Virus record (IMG/VR): IMGVR_UViG_3300032311_001249
Location: 25,935 to 89,934 of that record
Reading direction: 5' to 3' (one strand)
Length of the DNA: 64,000 bases
Source: a virus
The notes beneath the pieces were generated by a model. That model made no database searches. It was not told the origin of the DNA and was given only the letters and a program-made list of their open reading frames with translations. A program made the translations under genes and the position numbers. Shown here piece after piece: positions 2,791 to 58,874 of this stretch (positions are counted from its first letter, which is position 1; every line of letters begins with the position of its first letter).

Positions 2791-3234
2791 ATGACAAAAA
2801 ATTTTGATTTTTTCTATGAACAATTAATAAAAGAGGTTTTTACATCCAAAAATAAAAGGAGAGAAAATCGTTATGGGTTGAATGAACCTAATACTAGTTC
2901 AAAGATCAGAGCCGTCAGATTGTTTCCTAGAAAAACAGACTCACAAGATACTAAAATAGGTAATTCTCAACAATATGTTGGAAACTACTGGAAAAAAGAT
3001 GGAATAAGAACCAACAAATCTGAGAAAACAGCAACAGAAAGAGCGATAGCTAATGGAACTGGTGGTCATTTGAGAATAAAAGGTGTTAATCCTAAAAAAC
3101 CGGGAGCCAAAGTAAACTCCAAACAAGGAGATATGGAAGTCAAATATTCTCTTGGTAATGGAATGTATAAAGTGGGTAAAACTGGTAAAACACAGTTTAA
3201 AAATGTAGAAAAGATATTCAGCAAACAAGATTAA
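2791..3234 (+). CDS. small basic protein with capsid-targeting-like N-terminus
   Basis: The 147-residue product has no recognised family. It begins MTKNFDFFYEQLIKEV, so the candidate targeting peptide ends in I-K-E at residues 13-15. The body is basic and Gly/Lys/Asn-rich (for example GGHLRIKGVNPKKPGAK), as expected for a DNA-associated internal protein, and has no cysteine. The upstream 18 bases hold an A/T-rich TTTATAAAAT element rather than a Shine-Dalgarno sequence. It is the first gene of the rightward late block and diverges from primase. A role inside the capsid is inferred. Confidence 0.6.
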   Translation: MTKNFDFFYEQLIKEVFTSKNKRRENRYGLNEPNTSSKIRAVRLFPRKTDSQDTKIGNSQQYVGNYWKKDGIRTNKSEKTATERAIANGTGGHLRIKGVNPKKPGAKVNSKQGDMEVKYSLGNGMYKVGKTGKTQFKNVEKIFSKQD

Positions 3235-3242
3235 GTAATTAT

Positions 3243-4127
3243 ATGCTTGATATACCCACCAACTGTGGTCCTTTAGATTTACAATTTGCTAACGAAGCTC
3301 TGGAGAGAGTTAATCGCTTTAGGCAAAGTCATATAGATGCTACAAGTCCACCAGATTTAACTCATGGAAGAATAAAATATTTTCATAATATAATATGTAG
3401 TTGGGCATTTAGTGTTCCTTTAAAATTTGATTGGGTGGTTGTTATAAATGCCAAAAATAAAAATTATATATTAAATGAAATAAACAACATAGGAGATAGA
3501 TATGAAACAAAAGGTTGGAATGTGGGAAATTCTGCTAGCCAAACTACTATTCACAGTGTTCAAGATGTTATAGGCTGCATCTTTGCACAAGGAGTGCAAA
3601 TACCGGGAGAAAAAACAAAAATAGAAAGAGCAGGAATATCAGAAGGTTCGAATAGAGGATTTATAAATGCTCCTATTGTTAGTGGAAGAACAGATTTTGA
3701 ACCTTTGCAAATAGGATTTTTAGAAACTAATAAATCTTTTATTGATGGATTTCTCAGACCTTGGAATATTTTAGTTTCTCATAAAGGTCTTATAGCCACA
3801 TCAAACAGCCAAAGCATAAAGGCTGATATTGTGTTGCATCAATTAGCAAGAAATGGCAGTGATGTCACATCAAAAATTAGAAAAACTTTTGTATTTGAAG
3901 ATTGTGCTCCTATAAGCATAGCCAATGAAACTTTAGATTATAATAGCGGCAGCGATTTTCCAAAATTACAAGTGGAATTTTCTTATTCCAAATATTATAT
4001 TAGTGATGGTTATTCTAATAATACCAACGATTATTATCCACAATCCAATTCTACAACTAATAAAATACCTAATAATCTTTTAACAATAAGAACTACTCCA
4101 GAAATATTTGCTAACACCGCTGTTTAA
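3243..4127 (+). CDS. tail-tube-fold baseplate protein, gp54-like
   Basis: The 294-residue product resembles the T4 gp19/gp48/gp54 tube-fold family. The middle holds a pattern in which an FLETN strand is followed by a helix with W and then a hydrophobic stretch. The C-terminal half has FEDCAPISIANETLDYN followed by LQVEFSYSKY, close in form to T4 gp54 FTGCIPISVSAPELSYD...FDVTFAYR. In T4, gp54 sits on the baseplate hub and starts tube polymerisation. It opens the baseplate block here, only eight bases after the previous gene. gp19 (the tube itself) is an alternative, though that is normally about 160 residues. Confidence 0.6.
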   Translation: MLDIPTNCGPLDLQFANEALERVNRFRQSHIDATSPPDLTHGRIKYFHNIICSWAFSVPLKFDWVVVINAKNKNYILNEINNIGDRYETKGWNVGNSASQTTIHSVQDVIGCIFAQGVQIPGEKTKIERAGISEGSNRGFINAPIVSGRTDFEPLQIGFLETNKSFIDGFLRPWNILVSHKGLIATSNSQSIKADIVLHQLARNGSDVTSKIRKTFVFEDCAPISIANETLDYNSGSDFPKLQVEFSYSKYYISDGYSNNTNDYYPQSNSTTNKIPNNLLTIRTTPEIFANTAV

Positions 4128-4141
4128 AGATAATTAGTTTA

Positions 4142-5104
4142 ATGGCATTTTATAAAATTTGGGTTCCTTCAAAACAGAAATATGTTAGATTTAAAGAAAT
4201 TGATTCGGAACAATATAGAGATATATTAAAAAGTGTTGATGATGACTCTGATTTTGAATATAACGTAAACTATATTGTACAAAACAATTGCTGTTCAAAA
4301 GATTTTTTATTAAAAGAACACACTATAATAGACCGTTTTGTTATTTTATTACAACTAAAAATACATTCTTGTGGTTCAAAACTAAATTTAACCAGAATTT
4401 GTGATAAATGCGACACAAAAACAGACTTTTCTATTGATTTAAACCAATTGATTGATGAGTTGGCTAAAGGTGTAGATCGTTCTTTTGAGAAAATTTTTAA
4501 AATAAACGATTTATCAGTGCTGTGTGATGTTCCTTCTGTTGGAAATCAAGAATCACAACAATTTGATAAGACTGATTTGGGTAAAAGAATTGATTTTTAT
4601 CTGTATTCTTTTATAAAATCATTGTATATAGGAGATAAAACTATAAATTTAGCCGATTTTGATTTTGAACAAAGAAATGAGATATGTTCTAACCTTCCTT
4701 TTTCATGTATAAACACTATAAAAACAATTTATGTGGACGAAATTCATAGAATATTCTCTGATTGTATGATAAAAGAAACAGTTTGTTCTAATAATAAATG
4801 TGAGGACATACTTTCTATAAAATTTGATTTTTCTAGTGTGACTGATGTTATGAAATTATTGTTTAGAGACTCTAATAATGTGAACATTTTATCACAATAT
4901 GCTAATTTAAGCATGAATTGTCACTTCGACTATCATTTTTATAAGAATATTTGTCCAGCAGAATTAATAATTTTGGATAATTTGGTTAGAAACAGCATGA
5001 AAAAGACTGAACAAGAACAGAATTCCAATAAAGACATCAACATGTTTGAACAATACAAATTAAATGAGATTGATATGGTTGAAAGTAAGAGCGAATTTGA
5101 GTAA
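4142..5104 (+). CDS. baseplate hub/assembly protein, gp26-like, with zinc-ribbon cysteines
   Basis: The 320-residue protein fits the T4_baseplate (gp26/gp51) type. An N-terminal domain is followed by a hydrophobic segment ending VILLQLKIHSCG, then a CDKC pair, FSIDL and a helical C-terminal half. The CDKC pair (about residues 89-92) could form half of a zinc ribbon, with other half-sites at CCS and at CSNNKC (about 217-222). The next gene is a shorter relative with the same layout, so this is a tandem pair as with T4 gp26 and gp51. The role would be in hub assembly. Assigned by domain layout and position. Confidence 0.5.
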   Translation: MAFYKIWVPSKQKYVRFKEIDSEQYRDILKSVDDDSDFEYNVNYIVQNNCCSKDFLLKEHTIIDRFVILLQLKIHSCGSKLNLTRICDKCDTKTDFSIDLNQLIDELAKGVDRSFEKIFKINDLSVLCDVPSVGNQESQQFDKTDLGKRIDFYLYSFIKSLYIGDKTINLADFDFEQRNEICSNLPFSCINTIKTIYVDEIHRIFSDCMIKETVCSNNKCEDILSIKFDFSSVTDVMKLLFRDSNNVNILSQYANLSMNCHFDYHFYKNICPAELIILDNLVRNSMKKTEQEQNSNKDINMFEQYKLNEIDMVESKSEFE

Positions 5105-6547: not shown

Positions 6548-8455
6548 ATGGCAGAAATTTCCGAAATAATGGCAGCAATAGATTCTTTTTTATCTAAAAA
6601 AGGAAAAGAGGATAGTTATCTTGTCAAAAAAATAACCGGATTATTTGAAGGAGATGATGCTCCTTTTAATACTGAAAAAGGAGTATTAAAAGAATTTAAG
6701 AAAAAATTTAAAAAATTAAATGATGGAGCAGAAAAAAATACAGAAAATTTTAATGAATTATCAAAAACAATAAAAAAATTTAACAGAGTTTTTACAGATA
6801 ATTTCTTTAAAAACTTGAGAGGGTTCAGAGATAATTTAAAAATATCTGTGTTAAATAACTTTTTTGAAAATTTAAAAGATGTTAATAAAAAATTTAAAAA
6901 AGGAATCTCTCCTGACAAAGAGAGTGTCATACAACAAGAAAGTATAGTTGATGTTAGAATAAAAGAAATAGATGATGGGGTAGCTAATTCTCTGTTATCC
7001 AAAATATCTAACATAATGGCTAGAAAAATAAATTTTTCTTCTGACAATAAAAATGAAGAACGATACGACAAAGAACAAGGTTTTTTCTCAAAAATATTAA
7101 AAGGAATATTAGGAGTCTCTGCTCTTTTTGTAGGTGTTGGTTTTATAAGCAAGTTTTTAAATGAGACAGAAATAGGAAAGTCTATAAAAAATAAATTAGG
7201 AGATTTTAAAGACAAAGCTTTAGAAGCTCTCAAACCAGCATTAAAAGTATTGATGAATCTTTTTGTAGAAGGTATGAAACAAGTTTTGTTTGAGTTACCT
7301 AAATGGTTTTTAAAACAAACATTTAATTTCTTTGGTCTAAAGGAAATGTTGGGAGAACAATATGAGGGCATAGCAGTTATTTTAACCAAAGGAATATACT
7401 ATGGAGTAAAAACATTTTTTACTAAAACATTAAATAAAATTTCTTTTGGATTATTTGGTAAATTAACTCAGAGTTTAACTGGTATGTTTGGTAGTTTAGG
7501 AAATTCATTAATTAAAATAGGCAAAGGGTTATCAGATAGTTTACTAAGACCATTAAGTTTTATAGGAAAAATTCCCGGAATGTTGGGTAAATTTTTTAGT
7601 AATATAGGTTTTGGTGCAGGTGGAGGAGTTGCTAAAGTTTTAACAAGTATAACAAAAATATCAGGAGGAAGTTTACTAAAAATATTAGGAACTGGACTAA
7701 AAAATATAGCAAAAAGAATTCCTTTTATTGGTGCTCTTATATCTTTCAAAGATGCATATGATAGATTTCAAAAAGGAGATATTCTAGGCGGTTTTATCAG
7801 CATAGGTTCTGGTATAGCTAGTACTTTTCCGGGCATAGGCACTGCTATAAGCATAGGTCTGGATGTGCTTAATGCTTTCTTGGACTATTCTGATAGTGGA
7901 TCAAAATTTAAAACAATGATTAATGATAACTTTATCACTAGAGCTATAGGAGATTTGATAAACGGAACAATGGATTTTTTCACCAATATTTTAGAAATGT
8001 TAAATCCAGTATCTTGGGGTAAGAGTATATGGGATTGGATTACTGGAAAGAAAAAATCTGCTGAACAACAAATAAAAGATAGTGAGCAAGATTCTAGTGT
8101 TAAACCTTATTCTGGTGCTAGATATGATTTACCTGTTAAACAAGTTCAAGATGCAAGAGTGAGTGGTAAAAACTTGATAGTTCCAAGCAATCAAGATGAT
8201 GTTGTTCTTGCCAAAAATAATGGCCCATTTGACAGAGCTTTCAAAGATATGAATCATAAATTAGATGTATTGACTAACGTATTTTCACAAGGAGTTGAAT
8301 TAATAGCATCTGCTAGTGTTAATGGTAGTTCTAGCATAGTTCAGGCTGTTGTTTCAACAGCAGGTTCAAAACAAGCACCAATAATATCAAATTCATCTGA
8401 TCCAATACATAGTTTTAGAACTAGAGCACAAAGAGCTATAGAATCTGTCCGATAA
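6548..8455 (+). CDS. tape measure protein (gp29-like position)
   Basis: The 635-residue protein is long, helical and Lys-rich at the N-terminus, with central hydrophobic Gly-rich segments such as GVSALFVGVGFISKF (about residues 192-206), GFGAGGGVAKVL and FIGALISFKDAYDRF. Its size, composition and place between hub-assembly genes and the gp48-like tube cap match a tape measure, which sets tail length and leads DNA out. T4 gp29 is 590 residues. No peptidase or lysozyme motif was seen. It is driven by an exact TATAAATA element with no Shine-Dalgarno sequence. Function is inferred from position and composition. Confidence 0.6.
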   Translation: MAEISEIMAAIDSFLSKKGKEDSYLVKKITGLFEGDDAPFNTEKGVLKEFKKKFKKLNDGAEKNTENFNELSKTIKKFNRVFTDNFFKNLRGFRDNLKISVLNNFFENLKDVNKKFKKGISPDKESVIQQESIVDVRIKEIDDGVANSLLSKISNIMARKINFSSDNKNEERYDKEQGFFSKILKGILGVSALFVGVGFISKFLNETEIGKSIKNKLGDFKDKALEALKPALKVLMNLFVEGMKQVLFELPKWFLKQTFNFFGLKEMLGEQYEGIAVILTKGIYYGVKTFFTKTLNKISFGLFGKLTQSLTGMFGSLGNSLIKIGKGLSDSLLRPLSFIGKIPGMLGKFFSNIGFGAGGGVAKVLTSITKISGGSLLKILGTGLKNIAKRIPFIGALISFKDAYDRFQKGDILGGFISIGSGIASTFPGIGTAISIGLDVLNAFLDYSDSGSKFKTMINDNFITRAIGDLINGTMDFFTNILEMLNPVSWGKSIWDWITGKKKSAEQQIKDSEQDSSVKPYSGARYDLPVKQVQDARVSGKNLIVPSNQDDVVLAKNNGPFDRAFKDMNHKLDVLTNVFSQGVELIASASVNGSSSIVQAVVSTAGSKQAPIISNSSDPIHSFRTRAQRAIESVR

Positions 8456-8458
8456 ATA
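8451..8458 (+). promoter_or_regulatory. late-type promoter (GATAAATA)
   Basis: GATAAATA overlaps the stop of the tape-measure gene and ends six bases before the ATG at 8465, the same spacing as the exact TATAAATA sites. Confidence 0.45.
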
Positions 8459-8464
8459 TTAATT

Positions 8465-9598
8465 ATGAATATAGTCTTGCAAGAGAAACCCAACAACAAC
8501 AGCAGAGTTTACGGCACTTCTGGTGGTACACAAATAATAGATGTTGTGAACGAAATGAGTTGGACTATTTCTAATAAAAGATCAAGAAGAGATGCACCAA
8601 GAATGCGTCTTGTAGAATATCAACAATCCACAGGACAACTAATAGCATCTATTATATATTTTAGCAGAGTATTAAAGGATTTTGATTATTCTAATGCTAT
8701 TGACAGTTTAACTAAAAAAGCTGATCCCATAGAAATCTATAAACTTAAATATTTTGGTGATAAGACTGGTTATGAATATAGTGTTCCTTATTTTAATCCT
8801 AAAAATTTATCTAGAAATAATGAATTTTCTCCTAGTGATCCATTTGCTCCATTAACTCAATTAGGAACAAGTTATGGTGGTTCAGGATTTTCAAGAGGAG
8901 CAGCCCAAATTTCAACATTATATTCAACAGGAAAAGAGATCATAGACTCTGTTCTTCCCGGAAAAATAAATTTTGAATTTCCTCAAACATGGAACAATAC
9001 TAGCCCTGAAACTTATTCTACAACATTTGATCTTATAAATACAACAAATTTTAATGATGTTATAAATAATTGGAAATTTTGTCATTTATTAAGTTATCAA
9101 AATACTCCTAGCAGAAGAAACTTTGCTATAATGGACCCTCCTGTCATATATACTATGAGCATTCCCGGAATAGTTAACTTTCCTGTATGCTATATGAATG
9201 AATTACAAATAACAAATCTTGGAAATACAAGATTGATTGATATAGAAGGTAAGAAAAGAATAATACCAGAGGCATATAGAATAACATTCACATTAACTTC
9301 TTTATTGATGCCCAGCAGAAATATTATGGGAGCTACAAGAGATGGTTCAAATGTAGAAGTTATTGGTAGCAGCGAAGATGTGTCTAAATGGATAGATTAT
9401 GATAATGTTTTACAACAAGTTAAACAAGTTCTCACTCCTGTACCACAACCTGTTCCACCTCCCTCAACACCAGCCCCCATACCTCAGACTCCAGCACCTG
9501 AAAATTACAGAAATAATAATCTTGATCAAAGAAGTTTTGAAAAACCTTTTCCGCCCGGATTTAGATTTGATGTATTTGGCTCTAGACCTTTAAGTTAA
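8465..9598 (+). CDS. 48: baseplate tail-tube cap, gp48-like
   Basis: The 377-residue protein resembles T4 gp48, which sits between hub and tube. Its second half shows PETYSTTFDLINTTNFNDVINN, then MDPPVIYTMSIPGIVNFPVCYMNELQITNLGNTR, then a final strand AYRITFTLTSLLMPSRN. This is the tube-fold order seen in gp48 (WDLTPR..., NPTVWMVKN..., TFTLEITMREI). The C-terminal about 60 residues form a proline-rich linker (about residues 322-343) and a tail not seen in T4 gp48. It is translated between the tape measure and the gp53-like gene. Confidence 0.65.
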   Translation: MNIVLQEKPNNNSRVYGTSGGTQIIDVVNEMSWTISNKRSRRDAPRMRLVEYQQSTGQLIASIIYFSRVLKDFDYSNAIDSLTKKADPIEIYKLKYFGDKTGYEYSVPYFNPKNLSRNNEFSPSDPFAPLTQLGTSYGGSGFSRGAAQISTLYSTGKEIIDSVLPGKINFEFPQTWNNTSPETYSTTFDLINTTNFNDVINNWKFCHLLSYQNTPSRRNFAIMDPPVIYTMSIPGIVNFPVCYMNELQITNLGNTRLIDIEGKKRIIPEAYRITFTLTSLLMPSRNIMGATRDGSNVEVIGSSEDVSKWIDYDNVLQQVKQVLTPVPQPVPPPSTPAPIPQTPAPENYRNNNLDQRSFEKPFPPGFRFDVFGSRPLS

Positions 9599-20353: not shown

Positions 20354-21715
20354 TTAATCACCTTTCATCAAAGATTCAAAATCTAAAATGTCAGATAGAT
20401 TCATGTTCTCTCCAGATGATACAGAATTATCAAAAACAGGTTCATCATTTTCGTTGTATAGTCTAAGAGTATCATAATCTATTTTAAGATAACCTTCTGC
20501 ACCCTTGGCACCATCTCTGACTTTTTTACCACCAAATCTTATTATACTGCATTCTCTGTCTTCATCTGTCTGCCATATATTAACATGTCCATCAAAGTCC
20601 GCAAGTTGATCCCAACTACCACTCATGGTATCTAAACCGGGATTATTACTTCTATGACTAGCTCTGTTAAGTTGGGCTACTGTTAGAATAGGTGCTTCTA
20701 TCTGATATGATATACCTCTACATTCTTGAACTATATACTGTAGTTCAGTGTGTTTGCTAGTCTGAGATACTGATGGTTTTAATAATGCATGCCCATCAAT
20801 ACATAATAAATCGGGAGAAACGCCAGTTTTATCTTTTAATTTTTTAAGATAAGCATATACATTTTTTGCTGAAACTCCTTTGGTTGGAACTTCTTTTATT
20901 ATAAGCTTAGAATTATATTTTCTTTTGAATTCTTCAACTTGTTTTTTATATTTGTCTATGTTTTCTCCTAACAAAGAAATAGCTATTCCTGTGAGCATGC
21001 CTGATATTCTTTTGGCATATCTCATTTCACTCATTTCTGGTGATATAATAACTACATTCTTATTTTGTAAAACAACATTCAATGCTATGTTTGCTAGAAA
21101 AATACTTTTACCCACATTGGTTTCTCCACCAATATCATAAATAGCTTTTCCTTCTTTTTGAAAACCTCCACCAAAAGCATCATCAAGACTTTTATAACCA
21201 GTAGAAATAAAACAGTCTTTTTGTTGTAGATAATTTACAACTCTGTCATTTTCACAAAAATAATCCAGACCAAAATTATCAACAAGAGTTATAGAATGAA
21301 TTTTTTCACTCTCTTTTTGTATATCATCCAAGTTGAATTCTCTTTTAGATGCTTTTTCATCAATTATTTTATCCGTTAACAATGCATATTTTCTTTGCTT
21401 TAAGAAATACTCTGTATTATTAACTAATTCTATTTCGTTGTAATCAGAATCCAACTCTTTAATATAACCTACTACTTTTTTCAGAGACTCTTTTAAAGAT
21501 ATTGTGTTTACTCTAGACTTTAATTCTGTGAGACTAGGAATACTATTTCTTTCCAAATAAAAAGTTTTAATGATATTAATTATCTCTGCTATATCCTTGT
21601 CTTTGAACAAGGATTTGTCCAGATAATCAATGATTGATGCGATATAGGTGCAGTCCTTTTTTAAACAATGCTGAATTATTACCTTCTCGAAGAAATCTAA
21701 GTCTATTTTAGCCAT
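20354..21715 (-). CDS. 41: replicative DNA helicase, gp41-like
   Basis: DnaB-family hexameric helicase of the T4 gp41 type, 453 residues (T4: 475). The Walker A motif GGETNVGKS lies at about 196-204, followed by VVIISPEMSEMRYAKRISG (motif H1a region), a Walker B strand LLCIDGHALL (about 305-315), a sensor AQLNRASH near 345, and a final arginine-finger region DEDRECSIIRFGGKKVRDG. It unwinds the fork ahead of gp43 and works with primase gp61. An early-type promoter lies eight bases before its ATG, inside the end of the preceding gene. Confidence 0.92.
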   Translation of the reverse strand: MAKIDLDFFEKVIIQHCLKKDCTYIASIIDYLDKSLFKDKDIAEIINIIKTFYLERNSIPSLTELKSRVNTISLKESLKKVVGYIKELDSDYNEIELVNNTEYFLKQRKYALLTDKIIDEKASKREFNLDDIQKESEKIHSITLVDNFGLDYFCENDRVVNYLQQKDCFISTGYKSLDDAFGGGFQKEGKAIYDIGGETNVGKSIFLANIALNVVLQNKNVVIISPEMSEMRYAKRISGMLTGIAISLLGENIDKYKKQVEEFKRKYNSKLIIKEVPTKGVSAKNVYAYLKKLKDKTGVSPDLLCIDGHALLKPSVSQTSKHTELQYIVQECRGISYQIEAPILTVAQLNRASHRSNNPGLDTMSGSWDQLADFDGHVNIWQTDEDRECSIIRFGGKKVRDGAKGAEGYLKIDYDTLRLYNENDEPVFDNSVSSGENMNLSDILDFESLMKGD

Positions 21716-46414: not shown

Positions 46415-47200
46415 ATGACCAACAGATTTGATAATTTTTTAAAAAAAATACATGAAAGAGCATTTCATGCAAGCCCATATAATATTTCAGATAATTTTGA
46501 TTTAAAATTTGTAGGAAAAGGTGAAGGAAATAAAACATTTGGATGGGGTTTATATTTTGCAGAAAATCCAAAGGTGTCAAAAGAATATGGGGATTTATTT
46601 TATAGAAGAGGACATGACGAAATTTATATTTATGATGTAGAAATAGATGTAAAAGAAGATGAATTATTAGATTGGGATAAATCATTGGATGAACAGAGTT
46701 CTTTTGTAAAAGATAAAATAAAATATGCTGTAGAATATTTTAGAAGTTATAAATGGAAATCCTATAATGAAAAAGAAGGAACAGTGGTTGACCCTAACGG
46801 AAATCGTTCCAATGATATTATAGCATTTGACGAAAAACAATTAAAAGAAGCACAATATGGAAAGGCGTCTGATTTTTATCAATTTTTAGAATTTTATTCA
46901 AACTCTCAAAAAGATGCTTCTTTAGCTCTTTTAAAAAATGGCATAAAAGGAATAAAATATTTTGATTATCTTTCCAGAGAAAAAAAACAAGGAACTAGAA
47001 ATTTTGTAATTTTTGATGAAAGTCTTGTAAAAATAAATGGTAAAAACATTCATTATTTAAAAGAAATGACAGATGCTAGTGTATTTGGAGCAGATGGTCC
47101 TTATCCAACAGATGATGTTAGAACTCCTTTTGTGATGGGAACATATTCTAGAAAAGGAAAAATTAAAAAAAGAACTAGAAGGAAGAAAAGAAAAAAATAA
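46415..47200 (+). CDS. ADP-ribosyltransferase-like (ART-PolyVal type) with capsid-targeting-like N-terminus
   Basis: The 261-residue protein joins a candidate targeting peptide (MTNRFDNFLKKIHERA, I-H-E at 12-14) directly to an ART-like domain: FHASP (17-21), GEGNKTFGWGLYFAEN (36-51), and LKNGIKGIKYFDYLSRE...GTRNFVIFDESLVKI (about 180-210). These are the first and last conserved motifs of the ADP-ribosyltransferase family found in polyvalent and virion proteins. It ends in a very basic tail. T4 injects the ADP-ribosyltransferase Alt to modify host RNA polymerase. This could be its functional counterpart. It is late, in a pair with the preceding gene. Confidence 0.72.
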   Translation: MTNRFDNFLKKIHERAFHASPYNISDNFDLKFVGKGEGNKTFGWGLYFAENPKVSKEYGDLFYRRGHDEIYIYDVEIDVKEDELLDWDKSLDEQSSFVKDKIKYAVEYFRSYKWKSYNEKEGTVVDPNGNRSNDIIAFDEKQLKEAQYGKASDFYQFLEFYSNSQKDASLALLKNGIKGIKYFDYLSREKKQGTRNFVIFDESLVKINGKNIHYLKEMTDASVFGADGPYPTDDVRTPFVMGTYSRKGKIKKRTRRKKRKK

Positions 47201-47203
47201 ATA
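47196..47203 (+). promoter_or_regulatory. late-type promoter (AATAAATA)
   Basis: AATAAATA overlaps the stop of the upstream gene and ends five bases before ATG 47209. Confidence 0.35.
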
Positions 47204-47208
47204 TCCCT

Positions 47209-47622
47209 ATGCAATGGGAAAATGTGCCTGAAAAAATAGAGGATTGGTTTGGATTTGTTTATCGTATAACATGCTTATCCAATAATAAAAAATACATAGG
47301 AAAAAAACAATTTTGGAGTAATCAAAAAAGACCTCCTTTAAAAGGCAAAAAAAGAGGCAGAAGAGTAATTAAAGAAAGTGATTGGAAAGAGTATTATGGT
47401 TCTTCTAATGACTTGAAGGAAGACCTTAAAAAGTATGGAAAAGACTCTTTTAAAAGAGAGATTTTAGAGCTTACCACATGCAAGTGGGAGAGTGCATATC
47501 TTGAGCTTATGTGGCAATTAAAAGAAGATGCTATATTAAGAGAAGACTATTACAATAATATCATAAATATAAGATTGAACGGCCCTCCCAAGGATTTGAC
47601 AGAAAAATACAGTGTAAAATAA
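47209..47622 (+). CDS. GIY-YIG nuclease
   Basis: The 137-residue single-domain nuclease has GFVYRITCLSNNKKYIGKKQFWSN (GIY and YIG motifs at 15-18 and 29-31), a YYGSSNDLKEDLKKYGKDSFKREIL segment with the catalytic Arg, and a Glu in KWESAYLELMWQL. Similar stand-alone proteins are common in T4-like phages and may be homing or DNA-degrading enzymes. No DNA-binding domain is added, so a homing role is uncertain. Confidence 0.85.
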   Translation: MQWENVPEKIEDWFGFVYRITCLSNNKKYIGKKQFWSNQKRPPLKGKKRGRRVIKESDWKEYYGSSNDLKEDLKKYGKDSFKREILELTTCKWESAYLELMWQLKEDAILREDYYNNIINIRLNGPPKDLTEKYSVK

Positions 47623-48148: not shown

Positions 48149-48283
48149 TTATTTCTTTTTCTGCGTTGATGGTTTCCAACCAGTTTTTCTCATGGTTCCA
48201 TAAACATAAGCATTTTTTCTTTCACCTGTTAGATGTTTTTTATTTGCTTGTTGTTTGAGTTGTTTTTCTAATTTTTTGGGCAT
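48149..48283 (-). CDS. 44-residue basic protein
   Basis: A short leftward gene reads MPKKLEKQLKQQANKKH and then LTGERKNAYVYGTMRKTGWKPSTQKKK. The K/R-rich start and the G-x-x-x-NAYVYGT-x-RKTGW end recall small conserved phage proteins of unknown role. It starts 12 bases after the stop of the ABC-type ATPase gene and is probably co-transcribed with it. Confidence 0.7.
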   Translation of the reverse strand: MPKKLEKQLKQQANKKHLTGERKNAYVYGTMRKTGWKPSTQKKK

Positions 48284-48295
48284 AAAAATACTTAT

Positions 48296-51316: not shown

Positions 51317-52036
51317 TTAAGTTAAATCAAAACTCTTGTTTGTTCTGTCCTCTATTGCTTTTATAAAATTAGAACAATCCAGCAAGTCGTCTGGATTGCC
51401 AGCATCAAACCAAAAGCCATCAAGTTCATGCACTTTCACATCTTGGTGTATTTCATTCATTTTTAAAATTAAATCCACTATTTCTAATTCTCCTCTGGAG
51501 CTTGGTTTTAAAGTTTTAGCAATTTCGCATGCACTATTTTTTAAAATATATAAACCTATAACAGCTTCATTGTTGATGTATTCTTTTGGTTTTTCCACTA
51601 GAGATATTACTTTGCTGCCATGTCTTACCACCACTCCGTATCTTTCTGGCTTTTTAACCTTGTAAGAGAATATAGTGTTTGTAGAGCATTCTAATGGTTT
51701 GTTGTTGATTATGATATTATCTCCCAAAACTAGTGTTGCATCACTGCCATTCAACCATTCTTGTGCAAGAATAAAAGCTTGTGCTAAACCCTCTGGTTTT
51801 TCTTGAATACAAAAACTAAAATTTGCACAAGTTAAATCTTGCACAACCTTTTTGAAATTTTCAATTTGGTGTGGATTGGTAATGATTAATATATCTTTTA
51901 TTCCCATTCCAACAAGAGTGTTTATTGGAAAATAAATCATGGGATATTTATAAACTGGCAGCAATTGCTTGCTCACAGCTTTTGTTAATGGTGCTAGTCT
52001 TGTTCCACTGCCACCAGCTAAAATTATTCCTTTCAT
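51317..52036 (-). CDS. rmlA: glucose-1-phosphate thymidylyltransferase-like (RmlA, short form)
   Basis: The 239-residue protein has ILAGGSGTRLAPLTKAVSKQLLPVYKYPMIYFPI (pyrophosphorylase signature), LAQAFILAQEWL, TLVLGDNIII, GVVRHGSKVISLVEKPKE, YINNEAVIGLYIL, GELEIVDLILKM and GFWFDAGNPDDLLDCSNFI. It makes dTDP-glucose (or a similar NDP-sugar). About 50 C-terminal residues of the usual 290 are absent, as in short-form RmlA relatives. It follows rmlB by one base in one operon. Confidence 0.9.
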   Translation of the reverse strand: MKGIILAGGSGTRLAPLTKAVSKQLLPVYKYPMIYFPINTLVGMGIKDILIITNPHQIENFKKVVQDLTCANFSFCIQEKPEGLAQAFILAQEWLNGSDATLVLGDNIIINNKPLECSTNTIFSYKVKKPERYGVVVRHGSKVISLVEKPKEYINNEAVIGLYILKNSACEIAKTLKPSSRGELEIVDLILKMNEIHQDVKVHELDGFWFDAGNPDDLLDCSNFIKAIEDRTNKSFDLT

Positions 52037-52037
52037 A

Positions 52038-53036
52038 TCACTTGTTTAAATACCATTTTACAGTTTTTTCAAGACCTTGATTCAAACTTGTGCTTGGACT
52101 CCAATCCAATTCACTATAGCTTTTAAGATAGTCTATCTTGTAAATTTTATCATGACCTTTTCTATCTTGAACAAAACTCACCACATCTTGCAACTGGTGA
52201 TTTGTATTTTGAAAAATATTATATTTGTCCAAAATAATTTTTGTTATTTCCAAATTTGTAACATTTTTATTTGTTCCAAACAGATAGTTTTGACCATTTT
52301 TTCCTTTTTGAATTACTTTTAATATTCCCTCACAGTGGTCATCAACATACAACCAGTCTCTTTTTTGTTGACCATCACCATAAATGGGAATTTTCACACC
52401 ATTCTTTAAATTGTTTATAATTTTGGGAATTAATTTTTCAGAGTGTTGACCAAACCCATAGTTGTTGCTGCAATTGGTTATTATATAAGGAAAATTAAAT
52501 GTATGACCCAGACTTTTAACTATTAATTCTGCACAAGCTTTGCTAGCACTATAAGGATTGTTGGGATGTAAAATACTATATTCATCAAAAGCCACTCCAT
52601 TTTGGTCTTCCACACTACCAAACACTTCATCAGTGGAAACCTGAATAAAAAGACCATTCACTGCATTTTTATTCCAGTAATTTTTACAATTTTCCATTAA
52701 AATACCACAAGAATAAACATTGTTTTGTATAAAACTGCTTATGCTGCTTATGCTGTTGTCCACATGAGTGCTAGCAGCAAAATTTATCACCAAATCAATT
52801 TTGTGTTGAGATAAAAATATTTCGTTGATATATTTAATATCACTCTTATAAAATGTATATCTTTCATCATAGTACAATTCATTTTTTCCATTAATTGCGC
52901 TATATTCACATGAATCCACATTAATTACTTTTTCAAAATCAATTGATTTTGAATTGAATAATACTCTGAGAAAGTTCCAGCCTATAAATCCCAGACCACC
53001 AGTTACCAGAATATTGTTGAATCTTCTTTGTTCCAT
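52038..53036 (-). CDS. rmlB: dTDP-glucose 4,6-dehydratase-like (RmlB)
   Basis: The 332-residue extended SDR has VTGGLGFIGWNFLRVL, FYKSDIKYI, VINFAASTHVDNSI, QVSTDEVFGSVED (T-D-E catalytic acid pair), NPYSASKACAELIVKSLG (Y-x-x-x-K), TNCSNNYGFGQHSEKLIPKII and RDWLYVDDHCEGIL. All are RmlB features. It forms dTDP-4-keto-6-deoxyglucose. It overlaps the upstream rmlD-like gene by 34 bases. No rmlC was seen in the window. Confidence 0.93.
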   Translation of the reverse strand: MEQRRFNNILVTGGLGFIGWNFLRVLFNSKSIDFEKVINVDSCEYSAINGKNELYYDERYTFYKSDIKYINEIFLSQHKIDLVINFAASTHVDNSISSISSFIQNNVYSCGILMENCKNYWNKNAVNGLFIQVSTDEVFGSVEDQNGVAFDEYSILHPNNPYSASKACAELIVKSLGHTFNFPYIITNCSNNYGFGQHSEKLIPKIINNLKNGVKIPIYGDGQQKRDWLYVDDHCEGILKVIQKGKNGQNYLFGTNKNVTNLEITKIILDKYNIFQNTNHQLQDVVSFVQDRKGHDKIYKIDYLKSYSELDWSPSTSLNQGLEKTVKWYLNK

Positions 53037-53887
53037 ATTTCAAATGTTTTTATCAAACTTTCCTCTACTGGTAAAAAGTGTATTCCAGCATTTTCTATTT
53101 TATTACTATCCAAAACACAATTGCTTCTGGGAGTTTTTACTGTTTTTAAAAATTCACTCTCATCACTAAAATACTCATAACAATTTTTGGTAATATTAAA
53201 TTTTTTAGCAATATTCAAAACTTCTTTTGCATTTATGCCTCCACTATTAGTCATGTTATAAATTCCATAAGGAATTTTTTTCTCTATGCATTTGTAGCAG
53301 TTTTTAACAAACTCATCCAAATTTGTCAAGCTGTTTGCAGCACTCCAAATTTTATCATACTTTAGTATTTTACCAATGTAATTTTTTTCATTTTCTAAAT
53401 GATTAAAAGGCATTCTTAGTCTCCATATATAACTCTTGTGCCAAGTTTTTTGCACCAAACTTTCTGCCAGAGCTTTTGTACCACTATACCAGCTACAATT
53501 TTTAAAATCAAAGCAAAAATTAGGAAAGTCTGTTTCTTTATACTCTTTCCACCATTCAACTTTATCTTCTTGATAAATGCAACCACTGCCCACATATCCC
53601 AATGGAATATTGTATTTTTCACAAGCTTGTGCTATTTTTTCAGCTAATATCACATTAACAAATAAACATTCTTGTTTGTTGTCTTCACAGCCATCCACAT
53701 TGGGTTTTCCAGTATATCCAATGCAATTCAAAACAAAAGTTGGGTTGTACACTCTTATCATTTCTTCTGCCCAATAACTAGTGGGTTTATCTTTTAAACT
53801 AACAACACTATATGGAATTTCTTTATAATCAAAATATTCCTGAAACCGCTTGCTAACATATCCGTTTTTACCAAAGATTAGTATCAT
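53003..53887 (-). CDS. rmlD: dTDP-4-dehydrorhamnose-reductase-like (RmlD)
   Basis: The 294-residue protein begins MILIFGKNGYVSKRFQEYF. It continues with VLNCIGYTGKPNVDGCEDNK, YVGSGCIYQEDK (SGC in place of STD), SWYSGTKALAESL (Y-x-x-x-K) and a C-terminal KTVKTPRSNCVLDSNKIE, which is RmlD-like (P-R-x-x-x-x-L). It reduces the keto-sugar made by RmlB. ATG 53887 is preferred to 53893 by comparison with the promoter. It is first of the rml operon. Confidence 0.82.
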   Translation of the reverse strand: MILIFGKNGYVSKRFQEYFDYKEIPYSVVSLKDKPTSYWAEEMIRVYNPTFVLNCIGYTGKPNVDGCEDNKQECLFVNVILAEKIAQACEKYNIPLGYVGSGCIYQEDKVEWWKEYKETDFPNFCFDFKNCSWYSGTKALAESLVQKTWHKSYIWRLRMPFNHLENEKNYIGKILKYDKIWSAANSLTNLDEFVKNCYKCIEKKIPYGIYNMTNSGGINAKEVLNIAKKFNITKNCYEYFSDESEFLKTVKTPRSNCVLDSNKIENAGIHFLPVEESLIKTFEIWNKEDSTIFW

Positions 53888-53891
53888 TATC

Positions 53892-53921
53892 ATACTAATC
53901 TTTATTTTGGTAGTGTTTCAA
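53892..53921 (-). promoter_or_regulatory. sigma-70-like early promoter of the rml operon
   Basis: TTGAAA (53921-53916), an 18-base spacer and TAGTAT (53897-53892), followed by four bases before ATG 53887. Confidence 0.45.
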
Positions 53922-54292
53922 CTAATTTTTCGCCATAAATATGGTACAATTTATACCATAGTTATTAAAGTATTTGTTGATTTTGGTGGGAGGAATTCTT
54001 TAATCTTTGTCATAGTGACCCTTACCCATAGATTGGTTTTTATTAACTAAACCAGTGTATGAGCATCACTATGACAAAGAACATCTTCTTTTCTAAAATT
54101 CTTAGTTGATTTTGGAGCCGAGTATATTCTTGCAAGTCTTTTGTTGCTGTTCAGAACTATTAAAACTGAATAAAGACCTACGCTTTGCCCTGTTGCTGAC
54201 CCTTGGAGTACAACAGCGTTTTTGTATGTTTAATGCAACATTACTACTTTAATACACATAGTTTAGTTAGTCAAGATAAAGTAAGTAAAAAT
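53922..54292. other. about 370-base gene-free region with hairpins and imperfect direct repeats
   Basis: Together with the promoter this is the only stretch over 300 bases without a gene. It holds a 7-bp hairpin (53940-53946 with 53954-53960). A 15-bp perfect inverted repeat (TCTTTGTCATAGTGA at 54004-54018 with its complement at 54066-54080) encloses a 6-bp inner stem (54034-54039 with 54049-54054). A third stem pairs CTGTTG (54190-54195) with CAACAG (54211-54216). GTTGATTTTGG occurs twice (about 53977 and 54105), each followed by an ATTCTT-x-x-TCTT-like stretch. It lies between divergent operons. It may be a structured RNA or an origin. No tRNA fold was seen. Confidence 0.55.
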
Positions 54293-56896
54293 ATGAAGTT
54301 TAATCAATTTTTTCAAAAAACCTTAGTAAGTGAAATAAGTCAGAGCGTAATAGATAAACTACCCTATAATTTACAACAGGAATTATCAAAAAATAAAATG
54401 CCATTTAATAAAATATTTGGAAATCAATTAAGATTGATAGAGCCATTAAGAGGTACGTCACAATATGGTGAAACTATAAGAAATCTTTTGTCAGATGACT
54501 TTGAATTTGATTTTGAAAAATGGACCGGAACTAAATTAACAGATAAAGATAAGAAAAATCCCACCAGAATAGGAAAATTATTAAACAATAAAAAAAGAGA
54601 GCTATTAAAGAAAATATCAGACCTTCAAGAAGAATTAAAGACTCCCCCAAAAACTGAGGTTGTTGTTTTTCATCATTCTGTGAAAAGTGGTTGGATTGAA
54701 AAGTATAAGATACAAATAAAAGAAATTGATGATCTTTTAAAGGTGAATGACCTACAAAAAGCTCATATTTCTACCACTAAATCACAATACAGTATAATTT
54801 ATAGCAGAGTTCCTGTTGATGTTGTGAGAATGAGTGATTTTTCTTGGAGGAGTTGTCATAGTGAGGGAGGAGACTATTTTTATTGTGCATTAGCAGATGC
54901 AGTGCTTAATGCTGGAATAGCATATTTGGTTGACACTCAACAATTAATACAATTTGCTGGTGGTCAAGATAAAATACAATCATTTTTACAACAAGATGAA
55001 ATTTTTAAAGATTCAAAAAGAGCAATATCAGGAATACAGCCTCTTGCAAGAATAAGAATAAGAAATGTGATAGACTCTCAGGGAAATAGTATAGCAGTTC
55101 CCAGCACGAAAATATACAAAGACAAAGATTTGAAAGGAGTTGATGAAACTTTTAAAGATCAAGTGTTGATGTGGGCAAAAAAACAAGATGTTTCTAATTA
55201 TGAATGGGAGGACACTTTAACTCTTAAAGGTGGTAGTTATCAGGATGCTAATGTTGATGTGAAAACCATGATAAAACAGATATGGGGTAAAGATATTAGT
55301 TATGATGTGTCAGAAGATGAGGATGAATTTAGAGATGAACAAGACGAGGAAAATGACCACATCGAAGAACAGTTTTGGGATAACGTTAGAGAAGAAATAG
55401 ATGTTGAAAAGATTTTTAGAGATGCTCTAGGAAGGGATTATGAAGAAAACTTTACAGTTGATTTGGATTTGTATAATGGTGAATTAAAATTAGAATATGA
55501 TTTAAGTGGTGAATTTTTAGAGTTCTTATCTAAAAAATCAACAAATCTTGATAAAAAAACAATAAGATTGCAAAGACAAACAACAGCATATGATAAAAAT
55601 TTCACAGTTTTCATAGACCCCAAAAACAGAAAAGATATACAGTTTACATCAGTTAAATCATTTGTGTTATATGATTATGATCATGATGTGGAAACAGGAT
55701 ATTTTGATTATAGAGGATTTGTATATAGTATAGAAAAATATATAGAGAGTGTAATATCAGCATTTTTAGAGGAATCGTACGATGTTAGCCATCCACAGTA
55801 TTTGAGAGCTGCTATGAATAAAAAAATAGCAAAATATTATGATATAGAATTTCCAAAATATGATGAGGAAAATGTATCAGAATTAATAGCGTGGCATGAA
55901 CAATCAGAACTTTTTCATAAAACAATACTACCAAAATTAGATTATAAGTTAACAAGAGCTAATGATGGATATAATTTAGATTTTAACTTGAAACAAGAAA
56001 GTAAGCAATATGTTCTAGAAACTATAGATAATATGGAAAATTTCTTATATCATATAATTAATAAAGAATATAAAAATTTATACGAGAATAATTATATAGT
56101 TACACTAAAAAAGACATTATTCATCAAACGTCCTGAAAACATATCATCAGATGTAAATGCTAGAAGTTTTACAATAGGCATGGATAAACAAGGATATGAT
56201 AAATTAAAAGTGGTGGTGGATTCATATTCAAAAGTAGATTACATAGAGTATAAAATAGCAATAGTGCTTGAGTCTGATTTAAACAAAATTATAGACGATG
56301 GCAGTTATTTGCAGTGGCTGGATGCACTTTATTTTTTAAGAGATGAAGTTGCTCCAGAAATACAAGACAAAAAAACAGTGGAAGAATTGGAAAACTATAC
56401 TAAAAAGTTTATTAAAGATGAATATTTAAAAAAACAAGGACAGATGGATTTGGACCTTTCTAGTATAAATAGAAATATGAAAAATAAATTTGATCTTTAT
56501 ATACAAAAAATCTGGACAGAGAGTTTGGCAAACATGGGCACAGGAGGTTTATCCAACAGAAGTGGCGCGAACACACCTTCATCATCTAGTTATGGCACAT
56601 CATCTTCGACCACATCTAATACTCAGACTTCTCAAAACAAACCAATTTTTAGTAAAGATAAAAAAAATAAAATGAATGTTTCATCCATTGACATGGATAA
56701 TATGCTATTAAATCCTCAAACTAAACTAGATGATGTTTTAAAAGATAAAGACAATCAAAATTCAATTCTCACATACATATCATCATCCATGAGCGATCCT
56801 AACTATAAAAATAAAGAAAAAATTCAAAATTTGATAAAAAATAATAAAAATCTTAGTGATGCATTATCAAAATTTATCATAGGAGGTGCAAAATAA
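54293..56896 (+). CDS. large virion-like protein with capsid-targeting-like N-terminus
   Basis: The 867-residue protein starts MKFNQFFQKTLVSEIS (V-S-E at residues 12-14), again like an internal-protein leader. That start is preferred to TTG 54203 or ATG 54233. A conserved-looking block VDVVRMSDFSWRSCHSEGGDYFYCALADAV lies near residues 175-205, with Cys, His and Trp residues that might be catalytic or metal-binding. The middle is strongly acidic, and the end is a Ser/Thr/Asn-rich linker followed by a small helical domain. It is likely an ejected enzyme or capsid component. Family not recognised with confidence. Confidence 0.6.
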   Translation: MKFNQFFQKTLVSEISQSVIDKLPYNLQQELSKNKMPFNKIFGNQLRLIEPLRGTSQYGETIRNLLSDDFEFDFEKWTGTKLTDKDKKNPTRIGKLLNNKKRELLKKISDLQEELKTPPKTEVVVFHHSVKSGWIEKYKIQIKEIDDLLKVNDLQKAHISTTKSQYSIIYSRVPVDVVRMSDFSWRSCHSEGGDYFYCALADAVLNAGIAYLVDTQQLIQFAGGQDKIQSFLQQDEIFKDSKRAISGIQPLARIRIRNVIDSQGNSIAVPSTKIYKDKDLKGVDETFKDQVLMWAKKQDVSNYEWEDTLTLKGGSYQDANVDVKTMIKQIWGKDISYDVSEDEDEFRDEQDEENDHIEEQFWDNVREEIDVEKIFRDALGRDYEENFTVDLDLYNGELKLEYDLSGEFLEFLSKKSTNLDKKTIRLQRQTTAYDKNFTVFIDPKNRKDIQFTSVKSFVLYDYDHDVETGYFDYRGFVYSIEKYIESVISAFLEESYDVSHPQYLRAAMNKKIAKYYDIEFPKYDEENVSELIAWHEQSELFHKTILPKLDYKLTRANDGYNLDFNLKQESKQYVLETIDNMENFLYHIINKEYKNLYENNYIVTLKKTLFIKRPENISSDVNARSFTIGMDKQGYDKLKVVVDSYSKVDYIEYKIAIVLESDLNKIIDDGSYLQWLDALYFLRDEVAPEIQDKKTVEELENYTKKFIKDEYLKKQGQMDLDLSSINRNMKNKFDLYIQKIWTESLANMGTGGLSNRSGANTPSSSSYGTSSSTTSNTQTSQNKPIFSKDKKNKMNVSSIDMDNMLLNPQTKLDDVLKDKDNQNSILTYISSSMSDPNYKNKEKIQNLIKNNKNLSDALSKFIIGGAK

Positions 56897-57575: not shown

Positions 57576-58874
57576 ATGAGCAAACCAAAAAGTCTCAAGT
57601 CTAACAAAGATTATTCTTTTAACACAACAAATAAAAAGTATGTGTTTCATACTGAAAAAATAGTAGGAAAAAATTATGTATTAGATTCTAGTAAAGTTGA
57701 TACAATTCTAAAATTGTATTCAGATTTTGACAAAAATCCATCCACTTGTGGAGAAATAGCACAAAGAGTTAGCACTCCTAAAAAGGTTATTGAATTTGTG
57801 CTCAAGTCTCTAGGAATCACGCATGCCAGTCTTCCTTTTTCTGATGAAAAGGTAAAAGAAAAAAGCGAAAAAGAATTGATTGATGAAGTTCTTTTGGAAA
57901 AAAGAGCTAGCGTAGAGCAAAAATTAGAAAGAATAGACTGGAAAAAAACTGTTGATGATGCAGAGAGTTGGAGACTTTTCCAACATAACTACGGAGATTA
58001 TTTTGATAATTTAGTAAAATATTGGCAACCAAAAAAATATGAACCAGTTAAATTACAAACTAAAAAAAGCTCAAACAAAGAATTAGTGGTAGGTTGTAGT
58101 GATTGGCATTTTGGTTTGATTGCAAACGAGAGATATTTATACAATCAGAAAGAGTGGAATATAGAAGCTACACAAACAGCAGTTTCAGACTATGCTCAAC
58201 AAATAGTAACACATTTGCAAGAGAGAAATCATCCTTATAAAAGAATAACACTTGCATTTGGGGGAGACCTTATTCATGGTTTGGACGGTTTTACAGATAA
58301 GGGCACCAGATTAGAAGCTCATCCAATCAAAGAAGATCAATTAGAACAGGCTTTTGATTGCACTTTACAATTTATAAAAACTCTTTTATCTGTTTGCGAA
58401 AATATCAGAGTGGTGAGTGTTCCCGGAAATCATTCTAGTTTTGGAGATTACTTTTTGATGAAAATGTTGAGTATTTATTTTAAGGATGAAAAAAGAATTT
58501 CCTTTGAAATAACCAGTAAGAGATTTATAACTTTTGATTGTTTTGATTCTTTATTTTTATTAGATCATGGTTATGCACCTACAACTAAAAACAGACTACC
58601 TTCTCCCGGCACAGGAAGAGAAAATTATATAAACAATATATTTTTATCAAAACCAGAAAAGTTAAATGGTTATAAACATTTTTATTACTTGAGTTGTGAT
58701 CAACACCATATGGAATCTGGAGAGATGACTAATGCAGAACACTATATGTTTAGTACTCTTGTTGGTGGTTGCCGTCATGCAGACAATAGTGGTTATAAGA
58801 GCAGACCGAGACAGAGCGCATTGGTTGTAGATGAAAGAGGAGTAAAAGAATTTTTACATTTTTATTTTGATTAA
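57576..58874 (+). CDS. calcineurin-like metallophosphoesterase
   Basis: The 432-residue protein has an N-terminal part with a helix-turn-helix-like segment (STCGEIAQRVSTPKKVIEFVLKSLG, 56-80). A C-terminal phosphoesterase domain follows: GCSDWHFG (173-180), FGGDLIHG (228-235), VPGNHSSFG (282-290), DHGYAP and DQHHMESGEM. These give the five metal-binding motifs. The HTH is unlike gp47, so a DNA-targeted exonuclease or phosphatase is likely. It is coupled to the methyltransferase gene (TAATG). Confidence 0.82.
   Translation: MSKPKSLKSNKDYSFNTTNKKYVFHTEKIVGKNYVLDSSKVDTILKLYSDFDKNPSTCGEIAQRVSTPKKVIEFVLKSLGITHASLPFSDEKVKEKSEKELIDEVLLEKRASVEQKLERIDWKKTVDDAESWRLFQHNYGDYFDNLVKYWQPKKYEPVKLQTKKSSNKELVVGCSDWHFGLIANERYLYNQKEWNIEATQTAVSDYAQQIVTHLQERNHPYKRITLAFGGDLIHGLDGFTDKGTRLEAHPIKEDQLEQAFDCTLQFIKTLLSVCENIRVVSVPGNHSSFGDYFLMKMLSIYFKDEKRISFEITSKRFITFDCFDSLFLLDHGYAPTTKNRLPSPGTGRENYINNIFLSKPEKLNGYKHFYYLSCDQHHMESGEMTNAEHYMFSTLVGGCRHADNSGYKSRPRQSALVVDERGVKEFLHFYFD

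Follow-up and report, generated by a model that had tools for sequence, protein, structure and literature searches.

On its minus strand, the widest gene-free block in this stretch of viral DNA very probably encodes a structured RNA conserved among relatives. The RNA family is absent from Rfam and is found in uncultured T4-like phages. As to its function, we tentatively favor an RNA of the primer type that acts at an RNA-primed (R-loop) origin in the manner of ColE1 RNA II or T4 oriF, a reading that we consider a serious candidate rather than a probable one. The features behind these statements, namely the RNA structure, its strand, its promoter, its repeats, an AT-rich tract, a GC-skew minimum and an RNase HI neighbor in some relatives, were all read from sequence.

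The window (the whole 64,000-nucleotide stretch of DNA analyzed here) covers positions 25935-89934 of the 89,934-base virus record IMGVR_UViG_3300032311_001249, with a GC content of 29%. It carries T4-type genes for a DNA polymerase, UvsX, a gp32-like protein, a DnaB-type helicase, a Dda-like helicase, a tail tube and a baseplate hub. Since the nearest named polymerases are only ~31% identical to its own, we regard the virus as a distant, uncultured relative of T4. A sequence-only reading of this DNA had singled out a gene-free block between divergent operons, and this description holds: the 399 bases at 53894-54292 lack ORFs and form the widest inter-ORF gap of the window (the runner-up, at 48149-48295, measures 147 bases), separating a leftward operon (RmlD-like, epimerase/dehydratase, nucleotidyl transferase, Dda-like helicase) from a rightward one. 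The junction is organized as follows:

53003-53893, minus strand: first leftward gene, encoding an RmlD-like sugar reductase; in relatives, this place is taken by RNase HI, NADAR or other genes
53930-54240, minus strand: predicted structured non-coding RNA of ~300 nt, with homologues at the equivalent position in 10 further distinct copies
54280-54287, plus strand: T4-late-promoter-like element AGTAAGTA, immediately ahead of the 867-aa gene's ATG (54293)
54293-56896, plus strand: first rightward gene, encoding an 867-aa protein without database match, probably late

Relatives were retrieved from IMG/VR through the conserved rightward neighbor at 57576-58874 (exonuclease-like), and more were added through two neighbor genes and a DNA pattern. 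Every relative covering the place has a non-coding gap of ~300-490 bases at the same divergent junction; in L046, the gap occupies the same place before the 867-aa homologue. Eleven distinct copies were read, the window included, representing 8-9 lineages: type A comprises the window, L043, L044, L046, L049, L052 and L055, and the more diverged type B comprises L041, L066, L074 and L101, with L041 and L066 being close relatives. A search for a cultured phage with the RNA found none. A DNA pattern search with the arm CTTTGTCATAGTGAC returned 36 contigs, none of which had both arms nearby, while a three-block pattern gave 17 bacterial-genome matches and two extra viral ones, all without promoter or fold and judged to be chance.

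The proposed fold comprises a 5' domain and a 3' long hairpin, described here on the minus strand:

54235-54240, minus strand: 5' strand of helix B (TGTTGC), pairing with GCAACA at 54142-54147, both sides changed in 4 of 7 pairs
54142-54147, minus strand: 3' strand of helix B (GCAACA), showing covariation
54190-54216, minus strand: hairpin III (CTGTTG/CAACAG), whose loop holds G element copy 1, AAGGGTCA (54197-54204)
54132-54181, minus strand: helix A (54172-54181 with 54132-54141) around hairpin II (54166-54170/54150-54154), showing covariation
54004-54080, minus strand: hairpin I, a long rod with a perfect 15-bp outer stem and, in its 3' bulge, the second G element copy, AAGGGTCA (54016-54023)

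Because helix B crosses helix A, the 5' domain is a predicted pseudoknot. Across the seven type-A sequences, 92% of the cells of crossing helices A and B and hairpins II and III are paired, with double changes in 15 of 26 pairs, and the 34 doubly changed cells compare with 10.6 in shuffles (0 of 500 shuffles reached this number). Helix A is 94% paired with double changes in 5 pairs, and hairpin III 100% paired with double changes in all four counted pairs, whereas slid versions of the structure pair at 42-49%. In an alignment of 10-11 copies made by eye, stem by stem, helix B pairs at 95% within sequences vs 41% across them, and helix A, in 11 copies, at 98% vs 60%; L055 lacks helix B. The 3' half forms one long hairpin in 10 of 10 copies folded, and the 5' domain has a GC content of ~50% in a 30% GC genome. 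A 5'-domain covariance model recovered members at 1e-11 to 1e-26, one per record, and nothing else convincing. The window locus was found at ~1e-25 by a model for which it was itself among the building sequences. The type-A model misses the type-B members L041, L066, L074 and L101, which are considered homologous because of their gene position, their promoter and an identical order of helices. Further model matches, in L023 and at G005-G007, fall in reading frames or coding-like sequence and were taken as chance. We also considered the block as coding: short ORFs are present (e.g. 53850-54050), but the compensatory changes fit an RNA and not codons.

Several elements of the sequence-only reading can be recognized in this fold. 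Its 15-bp inverted repeat is exact (arms 54004-54018/54066-54080, 47 nt apart), an inner stem is found at 54027-54039/54049-54061, and the stems, whose lack of conservation it had named among the grounds for abandoning the idea, are conserved in relatives. Its suggestion of a structured RNA is strongly supported by covariation that includes the pseudoknot, by a conserved promoter and by the covariance-model score of ~1e-25. The non-conserved short inverted repeats of the block are unremarkable, and it is the arrangement conserved in relatives that counts. In RNA folding, each strand is more stable than 100 of 100 shuffles, with z = -4.2 for the minus and z = -3.2 for the plus strand.

The strand of the RNA is indicated by its pairs and by a promoter:

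54246-54274, minus strand: predicted sigma70-type RNA promoter, with -35 TTGACT (54269-54274), a 17-nt spacer and -10 TAAAGT (54246-54251)

Read on the minus strand, the helix cells include 14 G-U against 3 A.C, which argues that the minus strand is the RNA. The promoter has a minus-strand consensus TTGACW-17-TAAANT at a constant distance from helix B across copies. The same element occurs in L044 and L049, and the exact 17-nt spacer in L043, L046, L055, L066 (with TTGATA as its -35), L074, L052 and L101; L041 (TTGCAT-17-TAAACT) is the sole copy with a weak -35. Transcription is inferred to start at ~54239-54241, on the one or two bases that lead into helix B. Our first idea had been a plus-strand element, i.e. 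a leader or small RNA upstream of the 867-aa gene, terminating at hairpin III followed by GCGTTTTTGT, since a T run does follow this hairpin on the plus strand. We dropped the terminator reading because of the conserved minus-strand promoter and the wobble count, and as a separate late-promoter-like element immediately precedes the ATG of the 867-aa gene, we now give a plus-strand element almost no credence. Nearly as hard to sustain is the view of the block as a DNA element only, an origin or terminator with no functional RNA, in which the inverted repeats serve as cruciforms or as sites for proteins. The inverted repeats, the AT-rich palindromes and the position at a divergent junction would suit it, but the conserved pseudoknot, the strand-specific excess of 14 G-U over 3 A.C, and a promoter that immediately precedes helix B make it very unlikely.

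In a search of the window with the Rfam 15 models at gathering thresholds, no match was obtained, including to GOLLD, ROOL, wcaG, manA, RNase P and HDV-like models, and relaxing the search to E values up to 10 for four members yielded nothing beyond chance microRNA or sRNA matches to the long hairpin and further weak matches, likewise attributable to chance. An HDV-like topology was set aside, as the similar helix order lies on the plus strand, i.e. the wrong one, without HDV sequence or Rfam match; a minus-strand pseudoknot order like that of RNase P was rejected for want of an Rfam match. No tRNA genes were found in the window, and a tRNA or tmRNA identity of the block was rejected. The RNA resembles GOLLD and ROOL in being a conserved, elaborate, pseudoknotted phage RNA, theirs being of unknown function. 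GOLLD and ROOL are, however, far larger (659 nt for a ROOL example, >800 nt for many GOLLD) and often lie near tRNA genes (PMC12286853), whereas the RNA described here has no Rfam match and sits in a window without tRNA genes.

A different parallel is offered by manA and wcaG, structured RNAs of T4-like phages found near sugar-metabolism genes. By analogy with these 5' leaders of T4-like cyanophages, the RNA could be a long leader controlling the leftward operon, which in the window holds sugar-nucleotide genes. In 10 of 11 copies, leftward genes do follow the RNA, with RmlD in that operon in most, and the genes found behind manA and wcaG in cyanophages are sugar genes (PMC2864571). A co-oriented next gene is not found in every member, however: in L046, the RNA is followed by an oppositely oriented gene (3216-4262) that runs toward it, so that the RNA cannot be a leader there. 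The first gene also differs between relatives (RmlD, RNase HI, NADAR, DUF), and neither the window at gathering thresholds nor the four members at E values up to 10 matched wcaG or manA. We thus regard control of the leftward operon as improbable.

Beyond the helices, each RNA contains two R and two G elements, with one of each carried by the 5' part and one of each by the 3' part:

54105-54115, minus strand: R element copy 1, CCAAAATCAAC, preceded by ACTCGGCTC, co-evolving with copy 2
53976-53986, minus strand: R element copy 2, CCAAAATCAAC, co-evolving with copy 1

These correspond to a repeated motif of the sequence-only reading, of which the GTTGATTTTGG part occurs exactly twice in the block (53976, 54105) and the 'ATTCTT' part is only loosely repeated. 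The elements vary between phages: the R element reads CCAAAATCAAC in the window, CCAAAAACTAC in L044, AACGCGC in L046 and GGTTCAAAACTG in L066, and the G element AAGGGTCA, TAGGGGGC, TACGGGGG and AGGGGTTCC in the same members. R copies have a mean similarity score of 12.3 within one RNA vs 5.7 between RNAs (reached by 0 of 20000 permutations, and by 1 of 120 within type A), and G copies are likewise alike within one RNA and less so between RNAs (4 of 20000); these permutation tests ignore relatedness (L041 and L066 being close) and the operon-wise similarity of neighboring genes. Copies that are kept alike while their sequence drifts between phages suggest either one shared partner or an upstream copy matching the downstream template strand. 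Two narrower proposals were rejected: antisense targeting by the R element, as GTTGATTTTGG is no more frequent in the window than expected by chance, and a CsrA-type sponge, as GGA is present in the G element of only some members.

A shared partner would fit the main rival to an origin function, with the leader being less likely than either: a free-standing, trans-acting structured RNA made early and unlinked to replication, whose G and R modules would let a single partner, a protein or RNA of host or phage, bind at two sites, as in a sponge or scaffold. It would account for an RNA with its own promoter, a conserved fold and co-evolving twin elements, which in L046 is no leader and elsewhere precedes a first leftward gene that varies between relatives, and phage RNAs without known function, such as GOLLD and ROOL, do exist (PMC12286853). 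We consider such a role possible, but on its own it leaves the position at a GC-skew minimum, the unstable tract and the RNase HI neighbor unexplained.

It is these last features, together with the flanking, probably late gene, that lead us to favor a primer-type RNA. Cumulative GC skew has its global minimum at the RNA in all three long records read (G000 at 79890, i.e. window position 53956; G007 at 113327; G001 at 20575), and among the divergent junctions of G000, G007 and G001 (9, 11 and 9, respectively), the one at the RNA is the lowest, although skew largely tracks gene strand and any divergent junction is a local minimum. Since skew follows gene strand, we fitted gene strand and side of the locus jointly at third codon positions. 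A GC3-skew step at the locus remained, independent of coding strand (p = 0.006, 0.002 and 0.004), with the locus ranking 12 of 168, 9 of 260 and 10 of 169, such that neighboring or other positions fit slightly better. When linear drift is removed, the G007 minimum shifts to another junction. The second feature is the DNA directly after the RNA:

53876-53955, no strand assigned: AT-rich, easily unwound tract and candidate unwinding element, overlapping a small palindrome at 53935-53965

This DNA falls within the least stable 0.25% of 80-base windows of the locus in 8 of 11 copies and within 1.5-1.6% in two; in the window itself, the least stable 80-nt stretch begins at +291, after the RNA, and reaches no further than the record's lowest 12%. 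Finally, exactly one RNase HI gene is seen in 7 of 14 records, always within ~2.5 kb downstream of the RNA and on the same strand; G000 and G003, in which it was not seen, are partial records. RNase HI (PF00075) is the first or second gene after the RNA, and the sole RNase HI of the record, at L041:3887-4360, L049:6214-6696, L074:2478-2957 and L101:5041-5544, and lies ~2 kb from the RNA in L046.

Under the primer interpretation, the sigma70-type promoter would drive the ~300-nt RNA, presumably early in infection, and its pseudoknotted 5' domain (helix B across helix A, hairpins III and II) and 3' long hairpin would form a primer precursor. Because the two G copies are identical, as are the two R copies, the nascent RNA would, with its upstream copies, be able to pair with the template strand of the downstream ones. 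Behind RNA polymerase, the folded RNA might therefore anneal again and maintain an R-loop, which would spread into the very unstable AT-rich tract beyond the RNA. RNase H could then trim the RNA, whose 3' end would prime leftward leading-strand synthesis, while the opened strand would let the primosome in. We hold the origin role only tentatively because each piece of evidence for it has another possible reading: the AT-rich DNA, unremarkable in the window itself (12th percentile), could merely hold promoters and terminators, and the co-evolving repeats could be two sites for one protein. For the sequence-only reading, which had offered an origin or a structured RNA, this means that the guess as a whole is largely supported, the second proposal strongly and the first circumstantially, through the skew minimum in three records, the strand-corrected step, the unstable tract and RNase HI in 7 of 14 records. 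What it had missed is the minus-strand location of the RNA, the promoter at 54246-54274 and the place of the direct repeats in a two-module design.

The proposed origin shares several traits with those of T4. Like oriE, oriF and oriG, it lies where transcription diverges and skew shifts, and as at oriF and oriG of T4, a promoter in a T4-like phage is followed by an AT-rich tract, with RNase H nearby in some relatives. Thus, of the traits of T4 R-loop origins, both the divergence of transcription with a composition shift and a promoter reading into an AT-rich unwinding element are seen here, the latter weakly in the window itself (12th percentile). T4 origins, however, use MotA middle promoters and require no specific RNA sequence (PMC3016281), whereas the locus has a consensus -35 and a long, pseudoknotted, conserved RNA. 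Judged by the consensus -35 TTGACW, the promoter is not a MotA-dependent middle promoter (a MotA box in the -30 region and no -35), and we therefore do not file the locus as a T4 middle-promoter origin; since T4 origins need no RNA structure, the T4 model does not predict the conserved pseudoknot either. ColE1 RNA II is similar in being a long structured non-coding RNA with a host-type promoter upstream of the proposed start. In ColE1, the structured transcript makes its own persistent hybrid and primer, and no AT-rich tract is needed (PMC5043065). By this parallel, RNA structure would be needed for a lasting RNA-DNA hybrid, and RNase H would make the primer (PMC5043065). Unlike RNA II, the RNA described here is shorter and followed by an unstable tract, and a promoter scan identified no counter-transcript comparable to RNA I.

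A more specific version of the primer reading, which we regard as doubtful, is that these phages represent a new class of origin in the T4 superfamily, convergent with ColE1 RNA II, in which upstream repeats of a dedicated pseudoknotted primer RNA would invade the template at their downstream twins and would be kept alike by selection for RNA-DNA complementarity. If true, such twin-repeat invasion would explain how a transcript re-anneals to its own template at a chosen place. The rules of R-loop formation at origins and the use of R-loops by other origins are open questions in the T4 field (PMC3016281), and the model makes both testable.

Additional observations concern the surroundings of the RNA. 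In L055, it is followed (8425-8510) by about four head-to-tail, AT-rich, iteron-like units of ~22 bp (AAACTGTATTAAATTATAT...), and in L044, NADAR-domain and DUF4326 genes (3441-4194) come after it in place of RNase HI. In the window, the sugar-nucleotide genes at 51317-53893 (nucleotidyl transferase, GDP-mannose/dTDP-glucose dehydratase-like, RmlD-like) share an operon with the Dda-like helicase. A search for cultured relatives of the 867-aa protein found none; its gene (54293-56896) is fast-diverging, several relatives among L043, L055, L074 and L101 having a short remnant or a gene of 137-150 aa instead. Elements like AGTAAGTA precede many window genes (6534, 8451, 9920, 11564, 46013, 59388), and T4-late-promoter-like NATAAATA lies 3-14 bases ahead of many start codons (1216, 6534, 8451, 9920, 11564, 46013, 59388, 63745 and others), so that late mRNAs would be nearly leaderless. 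Finally, a protein weakly similar to ART-PolyVal ADP-ribosyltransferases (46415-47200) adjoins a SegE-like GIY-YIG endonuclease (47209-47622), the pair spanning 46415-47622.
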